NCBI RefSeq assembly: GCF_945277285.1
Contig: NZ_CALYPR010000001.1
Coordinates: 1,054,001-1,118,000, forward strand
Origin: an uncultured Bartonella sp.
GTDB taxonomy: Bacteria > Pseudomonadota > Alphaproteobacteria > Rhizobiales > Rhizobiaceae
Direction: 5' to 3'
Length of the DNA: 64,000 nt
A program made the translations under genes and the position numbers. The notes under the pieces were generated by a model. The model worked only from the letters and a program-made list of their open reading frames with translations. It had not been told where the DNA came from and made no database searches. Positions 2,241-9,157 of this stretch are shown here, piece after piece (within the stretch, counting starts at the first letter, position 1; every line of letters begins with the position of its first letter).

Positions 2241-3785
2241 ATGTCTTCAGGTCAACAACAACGTCAGGCCCTACACCGCCAGATATGGCAAATAGCCAAT
2301 GATGTGCGAGGTTCTGTCGATGGCTGGGATTTCAAGCAATATGTGCTTGGAGCGCTGTTCTATCGTTTTATCAGTGAAATTTTTACCGCTTATATGAATG
2401 GCGAAGATGAAAGTGTCGATTATGCCGGAATGGCTGATGAAGATGTTCCCGACTCTTCACGTCTTATTGCAATCAGCGAAAAAGGCTATTTTATTTCGCC
2501 CAGCCAATTGTTTGAAAATGTTGTGGCAACAGCCAATAAAAATAAAGAGCTTAATACCGACCTTGCCAGAATATTCAATGCGATAGAAAACTCGGCCAAT
2601 GGCCATGCTTCGGAACCGGATATTAAGGGTTTGTTTGCCGATTTTGATACAACCAGCAACCGGCTTGGCAACACAGTTGACGATAAAAACAAGCGTCTGG
2701 CAGCAGTGTTGAAAGGTGTTGCCGAATTTGATCTTGGCGATTTTCAGAATAAACAGATAGATCTTTTTGGCGATGCTTATGAATATCTGATTTCCAACTA
2801 CGCTGCCAATGCTGGCAAATCAGGGGGAGAATTTTTCACTCCTCAAAGCGTGTCGAAACTTATTGCCCGGCTTGCCCTTTATGGTCAGGACCATATCAAT
2901 AAAATTTATGACCCCGCATGCGGTTCCGGTTCACTTTTGTTGCAAGCCAAAAAGCCGTTTGATGAACATAAAATCGAAGAAGGTTTTTTTGGGCAGGAAA
3001 TCAACCACACCACCTATAACCTTGCCCGCATGAATATGTTTTTGCACAATATCAACTATGACAAGTTCGATATTGTCTTGGGCGATACATTGCTTGACCC
3101 GAAGCACAATAATGACAAACCCTTTGATGCCATTGTTTCCAATCCGCCCTATTCGGTGCACTGGACTGGCAGTGATGACCCGACACTTATCAATGACGAG
3201 CGTTTTGCCCCCGCCGGTGTGTTGCCACCAAAATCCAAGGCCGATTTTGCTTTTGTTCTTCACGCTTTAAGCTATCTTTCGCCAAAAGGGCGGTCGGCAA
3301 TTGTCTGTTTTCCGGGCATTTTTTACCGCGGCGGGGCAGAACAGAAAATTCGCCAATATCTTGTTGACAATAATTATGTTGAAACGGTTATTTCACTGGC
3401 ACCCAACCTGTTTTTTGGCACCAGTATTGCCGTCAATATTTTGCTTCTTGCCAAAAACAAAAAGGAAGCGACAACACAGTTTATCGACGCAAGCGAAATT
3501 TTCAAAAAAGAAACCAACAACAATATTTTAACCGAAGAACAGATAGACGAAATCATCAAACTTTTTGCTGATAAAAAAGACGTCGACTATAAAGTAAAGA
3601 TGGTCGACTATAATGATATCGTTAAAAACAATTATAATCTTTCCGTGAGTTCCTATGTTGAACAGGAAGATAAAACCGAAAAAATCGACATCAAAAAACT
3701 CAATGCCGAAATCAAAGAGACTGTACAAAAAATCGACAAGCTTCGCGCCGAGATTGACAAAATAATTGCGGAGATTGAGGCATGA
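2241..3785 (+). CDS. hsdM: Type I restriction-modification DNA methyltransferase subunit HsdM
   Basis: M subunit (514 residues) of a type I enzyme. It binds S-adenosylmethionine and methylates adenine at the target chosen by HsdS. Motif I DPACGSG lies near residues 224-230, the catalytic NPPY near 301-304, and the family GGEFFTP segment near 195. The N-terminal helical HsdM domain ([11 protein letters not shown]) is present. ATG at 2241 is preferred over the TTG at 2223 because GAAGGA at 2225-2230 is well placed for it. Length and motifs fit type IC (EcoR124/EcoprrI) subunits. The stop overlaps the hsdS start by four bases (ATGA), indicating translational coupling. Confidence 0.97.
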
Positions 3786-4900
3786 CCACGACAATAATCG
3801 AAAAATTATTAGCTGGTGTCAAGGTTGAGTGGCAGCCTCTGGGGGGGATATTAAGGAGAACTAGTGGAACATCTATTACCGCGGGGAAGATGAAAGCTTT
3901 ACATAAAGAAGGTGCGCCTTTAAAAATTTTTGGTGGTGGAAAAACTTTTGCCTTAGTTTCTTTTAAAGATATACCAGATAAAGATATTAATATAAAACCA
4001 TCTATAATTGTAAAATCGAGAGGAAATATCGGATTTGAATATTACGATAAACCATTTTCACACAAAAATGAATTATGGTCTTATTATTCGGAAGATAATA
4101 ATATAAATATAAAATTTATATATTATTTTTTGAAAACCAAAGAGCCATATTTTCAGCGCCTTGGTGAAAAAATGCAGATGCCTCAAATAGCAACGCCAGA
4201 TACTGATAAATTTTTCGTTCCCATCCCTCCCTTATCAGTCCAAAAAGAAATTGTGCGGATATTGGATGCTTTTACGGTTCATACTGCAGAGCTTACTGCA
4301 GAGCTTACTGCAGAGCTTAATGAGCGCCAAAAACAATACAACTACTATCGCGATAAATTACTTACTTTTTCCGAAACTGAAGTCGAATGGAGTTCTCTCA
4401 ATCAACTTGTAACAACGATAACACCACCATCTAAAGTTAAAACGGGAATTTATCAATTGACCGGTAAAGTGCCAATAATTGATCAAGGTGAGAAATTTAT
4501 AGCTGGTTATACAGATGAAAATTATAAACCAGTACCATCGGATAAATATATCATTTTTGGCGATCATACGGAACATATAAAGTATATAGATTTTACTTTT
4601 ATTCAGGGGGCCGATGGTTTGAAAATTTTAAAACCAAAGAAAGATAATGCAAAGTATATTTATTACTCATTACAGAAGTTTTATCAGAAAAAGTCTGATT
4701 ATAAACGGCATTGGTCTGAGGCAAAAAAAACTTTAATTCCTATCCCTCCCTTATCTGTCCAAAAAGGAATTGTGCGGAAGTTGGATGCTTTTTCAGATTT
4801 AATAACTTCGATCACGGAAGGTTTGCCGCGCGAGATAGAATTACGCCAAAAGCAATATCGCTATTATAGAGATCAGTTGCTAAATTTTCCAACCACCTAA
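3782..4900 (+). CDS. hsdS: Type I restriction-modification specificity subunit HsdS
   Basis: DNA-recognition subunit, 372 residues. It has two variable target-recognition domains (about residues 10-150 and 200-335), each ending in the same [14 protein letters not shown] segment and followed by a conserved helical region (about 160-200 and 335-370) with the paired motif RQKQYxYYRD. Residues 168-179 are three tandem TAEL tetrapeptides in the central helix, which sets the distance between the two half-sites in EcoR124-family enzymes. The recognition domains are visibly richer in A and T than hsdM or hsdR, as expected for exchangeable domains. The target sequence cannot be read from the protein. 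It is coupled to hsdM by ATGA, and prrC starts 14 bases downstream. Confidence 0.95.
4283..4318 (+). repeat. Three tandem 12-bp repeats encoding TAEL in hsdS
   Basis: Three identical in-frame copies of ACTGCAGAGCTT lie in the central helical spacer of hsdS (Thr-Ala-Glu-Leu, residues 168-179). In the EcoR124 family, two versus three TAEL units change the nonspecific spacer of the target from 6 to 7 bases (established knowledge). Perfect copies of this length are prone to slippage or recombination, so loss or gain of one unit would change specificity without breaking the frame. Confidence 0.95.
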
Positions 4901-4914
4901 AATGAGTAAATAAA

Positions 4915-6054
4915 ATGGGGAAAAAATTAGGGGGAATCGTAGAACAGCTGATGACGGATGAGGGGTCTTCATCTCACAATAATCCAAAGACGAAGTTAAT
5001 TTTCGCGTTCAATGGGGTTGGGAAAACAAGACTTTCTCGCGAGATTAAAAAATACTTCAGGAAGAAGTCTACGCCAGATAGAGCAATAGGAAAAGTAATT
5101 TATTATAACTCAGATACAGATGACCTTTTTCATTGGGACGGAGTAGAAAGACGAAGATTTGTAATAAAGAATAATGCTTTTATGCGATTTATTATAGAAG
5201 AACAAGGTGAAGATAAAAATATAACAACTTATTTTCAAGAACTTACAGGGAAAAAAATTGATATCATATTTCCTAGTTTTAAAAGAGATGAATACGGATC
5301 GGAATGCGCGATTACATTTGATTATGCAACTGGAGATGATCATGCATCAAAAAATATAAGAATATCAAAGGGAGAGGAAAGTTGTTTTATTTGGAGCGTT
5401 ATGTATTGCCTCATAAAATCAGCTGTAACTGAATTAAAAGTCGTAGAAGCAGAAAGAAGATCAACAGATAAATTTAATAACTTAGAATGCATTGTTATTG
5501 ATGATCCAGTGAGTTCGTTAGATCAAAATTATCTTATTGAATTAGCAGTTAACTTAGCAGAATTGATTAACAGCTGCCAATCATTAAATATTAAATTTTG
5601 TATAACGACTCATAACATGTTATTCTATAATGTTATTTGTAATGAACTAAAGAATAAGGATTGTTCTGTTTTAAAACTACTTGACGATGGTACATTTGAG
5701 TTGCAAAAAATTCGACATAACCCTGATACGCTGATGTCCTATCATCTTTATTTGATAAATATTATTCGTAACGCGATTAAAGACAACAAAATTGAAAAGT
5801 ATCATTTTACACTCATTCGCAATCTTTATGAAAAGACGGCATCGTTTTTAGGATATAACAATTGGGCCGATCTTTTGCCTAAAGATAAAGAGCGTTACCG
5901 TCAACGAATAACTAATGTGACAACTCACGGGGATATATCGGAAGAGGAGTATAAGGAGCCGAGCGGGTCTGAGAAGCGTGATATTAAAGAATTATTTGAG
6001 CATCTTATCAGTAAGTACAATTTTTCGCTTGGGGAGTATCCAGATGGTCACTGA
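4915..6054 (+). CDS. prrC: PrrC-type anticodon nuclease (tRNA-cleaving, restriction-linked)
   Basis: A 379-residue protein encoded between hsdS and hsdR, the same order as the E. coli prr locus (hsdM-hsdS-prrC-hsdR). The N-terminal ABC-type ATPase has Walker A FNGVGKT at 32-38, signature SKGEES at 151-156, Walker [10 protein letters not shown] at 195-203 and an H-loop ITTHN at 230-234. The C-terminal nuclease part has [13 protein letters not shown] with R302 and E306, then H338. The 4- and 32-residue spacings equal those of the R320-E324-H356 triad of E. coli PrrC (from memory). PrrC cleaves tRNA-Lys in its anticodon loop. It is kept latent by the associated type I enzyme and activated when a phage inhibits that enzyme. 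The gene is intact, AT-rich, and overlaps hsdR by 11 bases. Confidence 0.93.
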
Positions 6055-9000
6055 AACAAAGCCGATTGCCGAAACACCGAATTTTATTGTGCTTGATCGC
6101 TATGAAACTATCGACCAGACGGGCGCGCGGTTCCAGACAGAGGCTGACCTTGAAAACGAGCTGATCAGGGATCTGGCAAATCAGGGCTATGAATATCTCC
6201 CTTCGCTTACCTCACATGACAAGTTGCTTGTGAACTTGCGAACCCAGTTGGAAAAATTGAATTCGGTTCATTTTTCTGACAGCGAGTGGCAGCGGTTTTT
6301 GAGTGACTATCTTGACCGCGAAAATGACAGCATTGTTGATAAAACACGCAAAATCCAGAACGATTATATTTATGATTTTGTGTTTGATAACGGAACAATC
6401 AAAAACATCTATCTTCTTGATAAGAAGAATATTTTTCGCAACCATGTGCAGGTTGTCAACCAGTTTGAGCAGACCGGCATTTATGCCAACCGTTATGATG
6501 TGACCATTCTCATTAACGGGCTTCCTCTGGTTGATGTGGAGTTGAAAAAACGTGGTGTGGCCATTCGTGAGGCTTTTAACCAGATTCACCGCTACACCAA
6601 GGAAAGTTTCAATAAGGAAAATTCGCTTTTTAAATTTTTGCAAATTTTCATCATCTCTAATGGGACGGATACGCGCTATTTTGCCAATACGACAAAGCGC
6701 GAGAAAAACAGCTTTGATTTTACCATGAATTGGGCAAGATCGAACAATTCCCTGATCAGGGATTTGAAAGATTTCACAGCCACTTTTCTTGCCAAAAATA
6801 CGCTTCTTAATATTCTGATCAATTATTCGGTTTTTGATGTCAATAATACGCTGCTTATCATGCGCCCATACCAGATTGCTGCGACAGAGCGTATTTTATG
6901 GAAAATCAAATCGGCCCATAACGCTAAAAGCTGGAGACCAACAGGAAACGGTGGTTATATCTGGCACACAACCGGCTCGGGAAAAACACTCACCAGTTTT
7001 AAAGTTGCCCGCATGGCAACCGGCCTTGATTTTATCGACAAGGTCTTTTTTGTGGTTGACCGCAAAGACCTCGACTATCAAACGATGAAAGAATATCAGC
7101 GTTTTTCACCTGATAGTGTCAATGGCTCAAGCAGCACAGCGGGATTGAAACGCAACATCGAAAAAGACGATAACAAAATTATCGTCACGACGATTCAGAA
7201 ACTCAATAATCTGATGAAGAGTGACGACAATCTGGCAATTTATGACAAACAGGTTGTTTTTATATTTGACGAGGCGCACCGCTCGCAGTTTGGTGAAGCG
7301 CAAAAGAATATTAAACAGAAATTCAAGAAGTTTTATCAGTTCGGCTTTACCGGCACGCCGATTTTAGATGAAAATGCTTTGCGTCTTGGAACCACTACTA
7401 AAAGTGTCTTTGGAGCACTGCTCCACAGTTATGTCATCATTGATGCTATTCGTGATGAAAAAGTGTTAAAATTCAAGGTCGATTATAATGATGTGCGGCC
7501 GCGCTTCAAATCTATTGAACAGGAACAGGATTTAGAAAAATTATCGGCCGCCGAAAATGCCGAGGCGTTTTTGCATCCCGAGCGGATTAAAGCAATTTGC
7601 CGCTATATTTTAGATAATTTTGCTATCAAAACACATCGCTTGATGCCGAATGGTAAGGGGTTCAATGCCATGTTGGCTGTTGCAAGTGTCGATGCAGCCA
7701 AAGCTTATTATGCGACCTTTAAAGAGCTGCAAAAAGACGTTGAAAAGCCATTAAAAATTGCAACGATTTTTTCTTTTGCCGCCAATGAAGAACAGGATAC
7801 TGAAGGCGATATTGTTGACGAGAGTTTTGACCCTTTGGGGTTGAATAGATCGGCAAAGGAGTTTCTTGCCTCGGCTATTGATGATTATAATCGGCATTTT
7901 GGAAGCCAATACAAGCTGGATAGCGAAGGGTTCCAGAACTATTATCGTGATCTTTCAAAACGTGTTAAAAAACAGGAAATCGATCTTTTAATCGTTGTCG
8001 GTATGTTTTTGACCGGTTTTGACGCCCCCACACTCAATACTTTATTTGTTGATAAAAATTTGCGCTATCACGGGCTCATACAAGCCTATTCGCGCACCAA
8101 CCGCATTTATGACGCCACAAAAACATTTGGCAATATCGTTACATTCCGCGACCTCGAACTGCCAACAATTGAAGCTTTGAAGCTTTTTGGTCAAAAAAAT
8201 AATGATGATATTGAAGATATTGTTCTTGAGCGGCGTTTTGAGGATTATATCAGGGGTTATACCGATGAGCTTACTGGTAAGGACCGCCGCGGTTATATCG
8301 GGATTGTTGGCGAACTTGACAATCGGTTTCCTGACCCGAATTCTATTGAAACGGAAAAAGACAAAAAAGAATTTGTCAAACTTTTTGGCGAATATTTACG
8401 CATTGAAAATGTGTTGCGTAACTACGATGAATTTACAGCTCTTCTTGCTTTCCAGAATTTGGATGAAACAGATCAGAAAGCCGTTGACGCATTCAAAGCG
8501 AAATATAACGTCAATGATGAAGACATTACAGAAATGCGTGAAATTGACGTTCCCGATGTGCGTGCATTACAGAATTACCGCTCGACCTATAATGACATTC
8601 GTGATTGGTTGCAGAGGCAAACAAATGGTAAAAAACCGGAAAATCCGGATGGCATTTGGGACGATGTAGTTTTTGAAGTCGACCTTCTAAAATCGCAGGA
8701 AATCAATCTCGATTATATTTTGGGGTTGCTTTTCGATCATCATAAAAAGACAAATGATAAAGATGCGCTTATTGATGAAGGTCGCCGCTTGATCCGTTCA
8801 AGTGTTGGAAACCGCGCCAAAGAAAGTCTGATTATTGATTTCATCAATCAGGTCGATTTTGATAAAATACCAGATAAAACAAGCCTTATAGAAGAATTTT
8901 ACCAGTTTGCTCAAAAACAGCAGGCACGCGAAGCAAGAGAGCTGATTTTATCTGAAAAATTGCGGGAAGATGCCGCAAAACGTTACATCACAACATCGCT

Positions 9001-9157
9001 CAAGCACGAATATGCCAGTGAAAATGGCACTGATCTGAGCGATGCTTTGCCAAAAATGAGCCCGCTTAATCCGCAATATTCTTCAAAAAAGAAAACGGTA
9101 TTTGAAAAAATCTCCGCTTTTGTTGAGAAGTTTAAAGGCATTGGCGGAAAAATATAG
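6044..9157 (+). CDS. hsdR: Type I restriction endonuclease/translocase subunit HsdR
   Basis: R subunit, 1037 residues, close to the 1038 of EcoR124 HsdR. The N-terminal nuclease core has D152, then E166 and K168 in DVELKK. The SF2 motor has Walker A TTGSGKT at 309-315 and a DEAH box at 409-412. Each of these lies one residue from the position I recall for EcoR124. The C-terminal helical domain binds the methylase core. ATG at 6044 is chosen, with GGGGAG at 6031-6036 just upstream and inside the end of prrC; the frame is also open upstream to 5978, but that part has no family resemblance. It uses ATP to translocate DNA and cuts far from unmethylated sites. The gene appears intact and ends the operon. 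Confidence 0.97.

Follow-up and report, generated by a model that had tools for sequence, protein, structure and literature searches.

The prr locus of Escherichia coli, in which the restriction system EcoPrrI is joined to the anticodon nuclease PrrC, and the related nuclease RloC are the known systems with which the locus considered here can best be compared. In the available text of the published accounts, the gene order hsdM-hsdS-prrC-hsdR, the catalytic triad of PrrC and its linkage to type IC systems are already described (PMC3014915, PMC2610378), and PrrC proteins are given 341–416 amino acids (aa) and RloC proteins 658–897 aa (PMC2610378). The same sources state that the stretch contacting tRNA-Lys is conserved merely in a subset of PrrC proteins and that PrrC substrates may vary, since this contact sequence varies among them (PMC3014915). 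Here, we analyzed a stretch of 64,000 nucleotides (hereafter the window; positions 1,054,001–1,118,000 of the forward strand of contig NZ_CALYPR010000001.1, assembly GCF_945277285.1) from an uncultured Bartonella sp., in which an earlier note made from the letters of the DNA had pointed to an operon of the prr type. As judged from sequence comparison, this operon carries an apparently intact PrrC system of known kind, which is unusually divergent and has an unusual recognition peptide.

As the earlier note had claimed, hsdM, hsdS, prrC and hsdR stand head to tail at 2241–9157 in the order of the E. coli prr locus, and the frames of all four genes are uninterrupted from end to end (Table 1). 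Pfam and NCBIfam matches identified HsdM, Methylase_S and HsdR with an EcoR124_C domain. The end of hsdM overlaps the start of hsdS by 4 bases, prrC follows hsdS after a gap of 14 bases, and hsdR starts within the final 11 bases of prrC; an overlap of prrC with hsdR, which was also found in 28 of 74 compared loci, suggests translational coupling of the two genes. With both an EcoR124-type C-terminus in HsdR (PF12008, 4.1e-66) and TAEL repeats in HsdS, the operon is, by its domains and repeats, type IC-like. Three TAEL units were found in the window and in the congener G497, and two in the congener G491 (TAELTSEL); in EcoR124, a change from two to three repeat copies is said, in the available part of the source, to alter the recognition gap (PMC3874165). 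The genes hsdS and prrC are AT-rich (guanine plus cytosine content of 34.3% and 33.4%, respectively, versus 42.0% for hsdM, 40.9% for hsdR and 44.4% for the window). Scans for promoters and terminators were uninformative, with 34 promoter-like sites against 23.4 expected and 10 terminator-like sites against 6.9 expected.

Table 1. Features of the prr-type operon and of its PrrC product (positions in the window).
Feature	Position	Strand	Description
hsdM	2241-3785	+	Type I modification subunit, 514 aa, ATG 2241; TIGR00497 659.2 bits, HsdM_N + N6_Mtase
hsdS	3782-4900	+	Specificity subunit, 372 aa; PF01420 (Methylase_S) in two stretches
12-bp direct repeat	4282-4319	+	3.2 copies, TRF 100% match; three TAEL in HsdS spacer
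prrC	4915-6054	+	Predicted latent anticodon nuclease, 379 aa; PADLOC PrrC, AAA_13
Walker A region, AFNGVGKT, residues 31-38	5005-5028	+	GKT invariant in 209/209
ABC-signature-like SKGEES, residues 151-156	5365-5382	+	Column composition, 127 sequences
Walker B and D-loop, DDPVSSLD within residues 193-203	5491-5523	+	Invariant columns, 209/209
Stretch aligned with E. coli PrrC 284-294, residues 266-276	5710-5742	+	2/9 conserved columns kept
R302 codon, catalytic triad	5818-5820	+	Aligned with E. coli R320
E306 codon, catalytic triad	5830-5832	+	Aligned with E. coli E324
H338 codon, catalytic triad	5926-5928	+	Aligned with E. coli H356
hsdR	6044-9157	+	Restriction subunit, 1037 aa, ATG 6044; TIGR00348 642.1 bits, EcoR124_C 4.1e-66

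The prrC product matched the PADLOC PrrC model over residues 4–371 (356.6 bits, 3.7e-107) and Pfam AAA_13 at 44.3 bits (cut-off 36; the whole-genome search gave 33.7 bits there, below the cut-off), and no match to it was found in NCBIfam. Its length lies inside the 341–416 aa of PrrC proteins, and it is adjoined by the hsdM, hsdS and hsdR genes of the type IC operon. Triad and motif columns were counted in 209 readable PrrC sequences from 211 rows (L011 and L013 left out). The residues R302, E306 and H338, which the earlier note had singled out by their 4- and 32-residue spacing, do occupy the columns of the E. coli triad, in which R was present in 208, E in 209 and H in 209 of the 209 sequences; R and E were 4 residues apart in all of them, and E and H 32 apart in 202. 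In such an alignment, the match of the triad is far beyond chance. The sole exception at the R column is a metagenome-assembled genome (MAG) of Desulfovibrionaceae (L087), which has C there. The motifs of an ATP-binding cassette (ABC) ATPase that had been read in this protein were borne out as well: the conserved columns of the nucleoside triphosphatase (NTPase) are kept, both D of DDP and the final D of SSLD are invariant in the 209 sequences, T232-H233 is invariant, and the predicted model shows an NTPase head resembling that of Rad50 and, at the C-terminus, a helical domain bearing the R-E-H triad. Alignment with PrrC proteins thus gave neither a C-terminus from another AAA family nor triad residues outside the aligned columns. 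Searching the PDB by sequence yielded no PrrC structure: the single-sequence search gave one chance match (E 0.17), and the profile search with PrrC gave two Rad50-like chains (E 0.05 and 0.06).

We consider it likely that the operon encodes a restriction-coupled latent PrrC anticodon nuclease in a type IC setting. By analogy with the prototype from E. coli, the three Hsd subunits would methylate or cut DNA while PrrC is kept silent on their complex; a phage that inhibits the restriction complex would free PrrC, and the freed nuclease would cleave a tRNA anticodon loop, so that translation stops and the infection is aborted. The default guess for the target is tRNA-Lys, the weakest step, which we favor by only a small degree. 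Regarding the restriction-coupled cleavage of tRNA-Lys put forward in the earlier note, the latent mechanism is a natural inference from the published system and stands, whereas tRNA-Lys itself is less secure because this protein has an almost completely altered version of the peptide through which E. coli PrrC contacts tRNA-Lys.

Several points weigh against a restriction-coupled PrrC nuclease of the prototype's kind. The full-length PrrC model is of middling confidence (predicted local distance difference test score 75.9, predicted template modeling score 0.65), and the C-terminal domain, considered as a candidate HEPN domain, gave weak fold matches. Within the genus, PrrC was found in 1 of 71 genomes, that of the host only, and is thus an optional extra. 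By pairwise identity, the window PrrC is clearly more divergent than its HsdM predicts. Finally, the tRNA-contact peptide is rewritten, and contacts with the substrate or with a partner may differ.

The last point bears on a possible, rather unlikely alternative, namely that the protein is a PrrC orthologue with the same latent mechanism, directed against a different tRNA or a different wobble modification of the same tRNA. Among columns conserved in at least 90% of 205 other sequences, the window keeps 2 of 9 within E. coli residues 284–294 and, outside this stretch, 124 of 171 (Fisher p 0.003). The difference was stronger at 95% conservation (p 0.0006), but at 99% only four columns remain in the peptide, two of them kept (p 0.13), and none of these p-values takes account of the shared descent of the sequences. 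The reading GDSNxSFSYHL, found in 184 of 209 PrrC sequences, is absent from the window, whose own reading is limited to it and P0001–P0003, with one difference (R or Q). In the MAFFT alignment the D287 column holds N in the window, common only to P0001–P0003 and P0069, and D287N is among the substitutions said, in the available text, to reverse lost cleavage of hypomodified tRNA-Lys (PMC3014915). On the other hand, D271 may take the place of D287 under an alternative alignment, the spacing then being that of PrrC from E. coli C51 and Enterococcus casseliflavus. It should be noted that overall conservation is lower in the window than in any other sequence of the set; the odds of re-targeting are lowered because other stretches are poorly kept too (2 of 7 columns in E. 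coli 101–120, 4 of 9 in 141–160 and 7 of 15 in 81–100). With 2 of 9 columns, the protein falls outside the subset of PrrC proteins with a conserved tRNA-Lys-contact peptide; since the peptide is conserved in that subset only, this leaves its membership in PrrC untouched.

The genes for wobble modification point both ways with regard to such re-targeting. In its favor, the host genome has MnmE and MnmA matches above cut-off and none for MnmC (no match to PF05430; nine to TIGR03197, the best at 49.5 bits versus 174.2). On the opposite side, the host has at least one tRNA-Lys(UUU) gene whose loop is the pattern loop GACTTTTAATC. Moreover, among 39 other PrrC-bearing genomes searched for PF05430 (L070 left out), 12 lacked it and 11 of these 12 kept D287; four of the 27 positives were weak (<28 bits), so further genomes may lack PF05430. 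The family was present in two of four other alphaproteobacterial PrrC genomes and in none of four congeners without PrrC. Loss of MnmC, which we tried as an explanation for N at D287, is not general, as those 11 genomes keep D. A wider proposal, to which we give slightly less weight than to re-targeting itself, is that the window clade represents a PrrC lineage with a changed tRNA target or wobble-base demand, in which restriction-coupled control would be kept and the module would be gained or lost within a resident type IC operon.

With respect to the distribution of such loci, named loci were obtained by an alignment-based contig scan, from which 414 were confirmed and the best 80 of these were kept, and a single-sequence scan gave none; these loci contain prrC by construction. 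The survey for the four-gene order that the earlier note had called for bore it out: hsdM-hsdS-prrC-hsdR was found in 73 of the best 80. Six of the remaining seven end at a contig end, and L064 has about 0.85 kb after prrC and no hsdR match there. More than 12 of 74 measured loci had about 0.35–1.4 kb between prrC and the detected hsdR start, and the Salinivibrio prr locus (L004) had a small winged-helix gene at 6243–6443 between prrC and hsdR. PrrC occurred in 2 of 41 relatives of the order (the host and G028, 30% identity) and in 5 of 385 genomes of the class at E 1e-40, host included. Given that loci with these four genes are widespread and that other alphaproteobacteria also have PrrC relatives, the presence of such a locus here is, on these matches, unsurprising. 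The earlier note knew of no description of such a locus in this bacterial group; likewise, the literature searched (titles and starts of abstracts, with most subscription papers outside it) gave us no account of a prr locus in Bartonella, although the kind of locus is a common one.

The host genome measures 2.45 Mb, and the collection has 70 further genomes of the genus. A transporter gene next to the operon was found in 13 of 61 genus genomes at E 1e-100, host included (named relatives: Bartonella sp. HY038, 80%; Candidatus Tokpelaia hoelldobleri, 77%; B. tamiae, 76%; on this basis we call the host Bartonella-like), and the 12.5-kb stretches upstream of it were examined in 10 of the 12 other carriers. 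Two congeners, G497 (L129) and G491 (L134), have hsdM, hsdS and hsdR at the same chromosomal place without prrC; identity to the window was 84% and 85%, respectively, for HsdM, and 78% and 74–84% (over three pieces) for HsdR. G479 retains a 5' piece of hsdM at the transporter-linked place, and the other seven stretches had no DNA match to the operon except short pieces of the gene upstream. Thus, prrC is a module that the resident type IC operon may or may not contain. It is also missing from three related E. coli operons, so an optional prrC is not peculiar to the genus. In G491, hsdR is broken over more than one frame, and hsdM and hsdS are open. Directly upstream of hsdM, G497 and G491 have an unbroken GmrSD-type (DUF262/DUF1524) gene (708 and 723 codons, respectively); in the window, 893–2169 holds the remnants of one such gene with DUF5655 at its end, about 0.8 kb missing and the rest broken into several frames.

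We also compared the divergence of PrrC with that of its operon. At HsdM identities of 68–75%, PrrC identity had a median of 61.7% and a lowest value of 49.5% in 256 other pairs, versus a median of 48.2% and a highest value of 51.1% in 73 window pairs; pairs with E. coli C51 PrrC came near the window values (49.5–50.8%), and the choice of comparison loci, made on PrrC patterns and on likeness to the window, favors conserved PrrCs. Rows with truncated genes were left out (73 HsdM, 66 HsdS, 81 PrrC and 75 HsdR rows remained, window included), and the tree tool flagged an unusual letter make-up for the window, P0002 and P0003. In the HsdM tree, the window and two congeners formed a clade (100/100), joined under midpoint rooting (99/91) by 12 rows of Gilliamella, Snodgrassella, Apibacter and a Neisseriaceae MAG, the first three being bee-gut genera. 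The PrrC tree likewise united these 12 rows in one clade (support of 100/100 by the group test and 100/99 for the drawn branch), but the nearest rows to the window by path were L042, L068 and L053, a placement that is unsure at a stem of 1.67 changes per column. The excess divergence of PrrC is less clear by branch lengths: the PrrC stem compared with the HsdM path was about 1.67+0.04 versus 0.44+0.16 for the window and 0.53 versus 0.19 for the bee clade, a ratio near 2.8 in both.

Such a long stem is what would be seen if PrrC were in frame yet drifting, with the restriction operon as the sole working part, and the occurrence of prrC in a single genome of the genus, the broken gmrSD upstream and the broken hsdR of one congener would also fit decay. 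We consider decay improbable: the family-invariant catalytic and NTPase residues are kept in an open frame, PrrC copies at about 95% identity keep the invariant residues too, and the three hsd genes of the window have uninterrupted frames throughout. The identity of the product as a related ABC-ATPase effector of the RloC, PtuA, AriA or PDC-S06 type, for which there are weaker matches to PDC-S06 (best 1e-10), AriA (4.5e-4) and mad8 (6.1e-4), is refuted for practical purposes by the PADLOC result, in which the E-value of the PrrC model is lower by some 96 orders of magnitude, by the aligned triad, by 379 aa compared with the 658–897 aa given for RloC in the available text (PMC2610378), and by a gene embedded between hsdS and hsdR in a conserved four-gene context.

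PrrC relatives were also sought among mobile elements. The phage collection had none. Of 113 plasmid records with such a relative, 71 came from Klebsiella, and a divergent Klebsiella type (36–40% identity) accounted for 11 of the 30 plasmid rows listed. The prrC-hsdR DNA of Apibacter mensalis (L063; Bacteroidota) and Gilliamella intestini (L049; Gammaproteobacteria) was 95.5% identical over 4.4 kb, and a further 2.6 kb upstream was 97.7% identical; judging from these identities, the sharing is a sign of transfer between phyla.

Our data extend the range of prr loci to a Bartonella-like host and show prrC as an optional module, with the orthologous hsd operon occurring at the same place in the same genus with and without it. 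If the rewritten peptide does alter the target, the window PrrC would be a natural variant with which one could test directly how the anticodon is read by PrrC and whether restriction-coupled nucleases differ in their tRNA target between hosts.

Among known systems, RloC resembles PrrC in its ABC NTPase head and C-terminal nuclease triad, but in the available text it is about twice the size, has a zinc-hook insert and is seldom linked to a type I system (PMC2610378). The prr loci of Gilliamella, Snodgrassella and Apibacter share the four genes with the window and their HsdM rows form the neighboring clade, whereas their PrrC proteins retain GDSN in the peptide. Compared with the E. coli prr locus, represented by E. 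coli plasmid pRHB17-C14_2 (L003), the window PrrC has 43–47% identity, KYGDSNKSFSY of the E. coli protein is replaced, and the host, in contrast to E. coli, is without an MnmC match above cut-off. On the other hand, the two loci are alike in gene order, in the overlap of prrC with hsdR, in the 4/32 spacing of the triad, in the NTPase motifs and in type IC character, EcoPrrI having, in the available part of the source, the same three TAEL repeats (PMC3874165).
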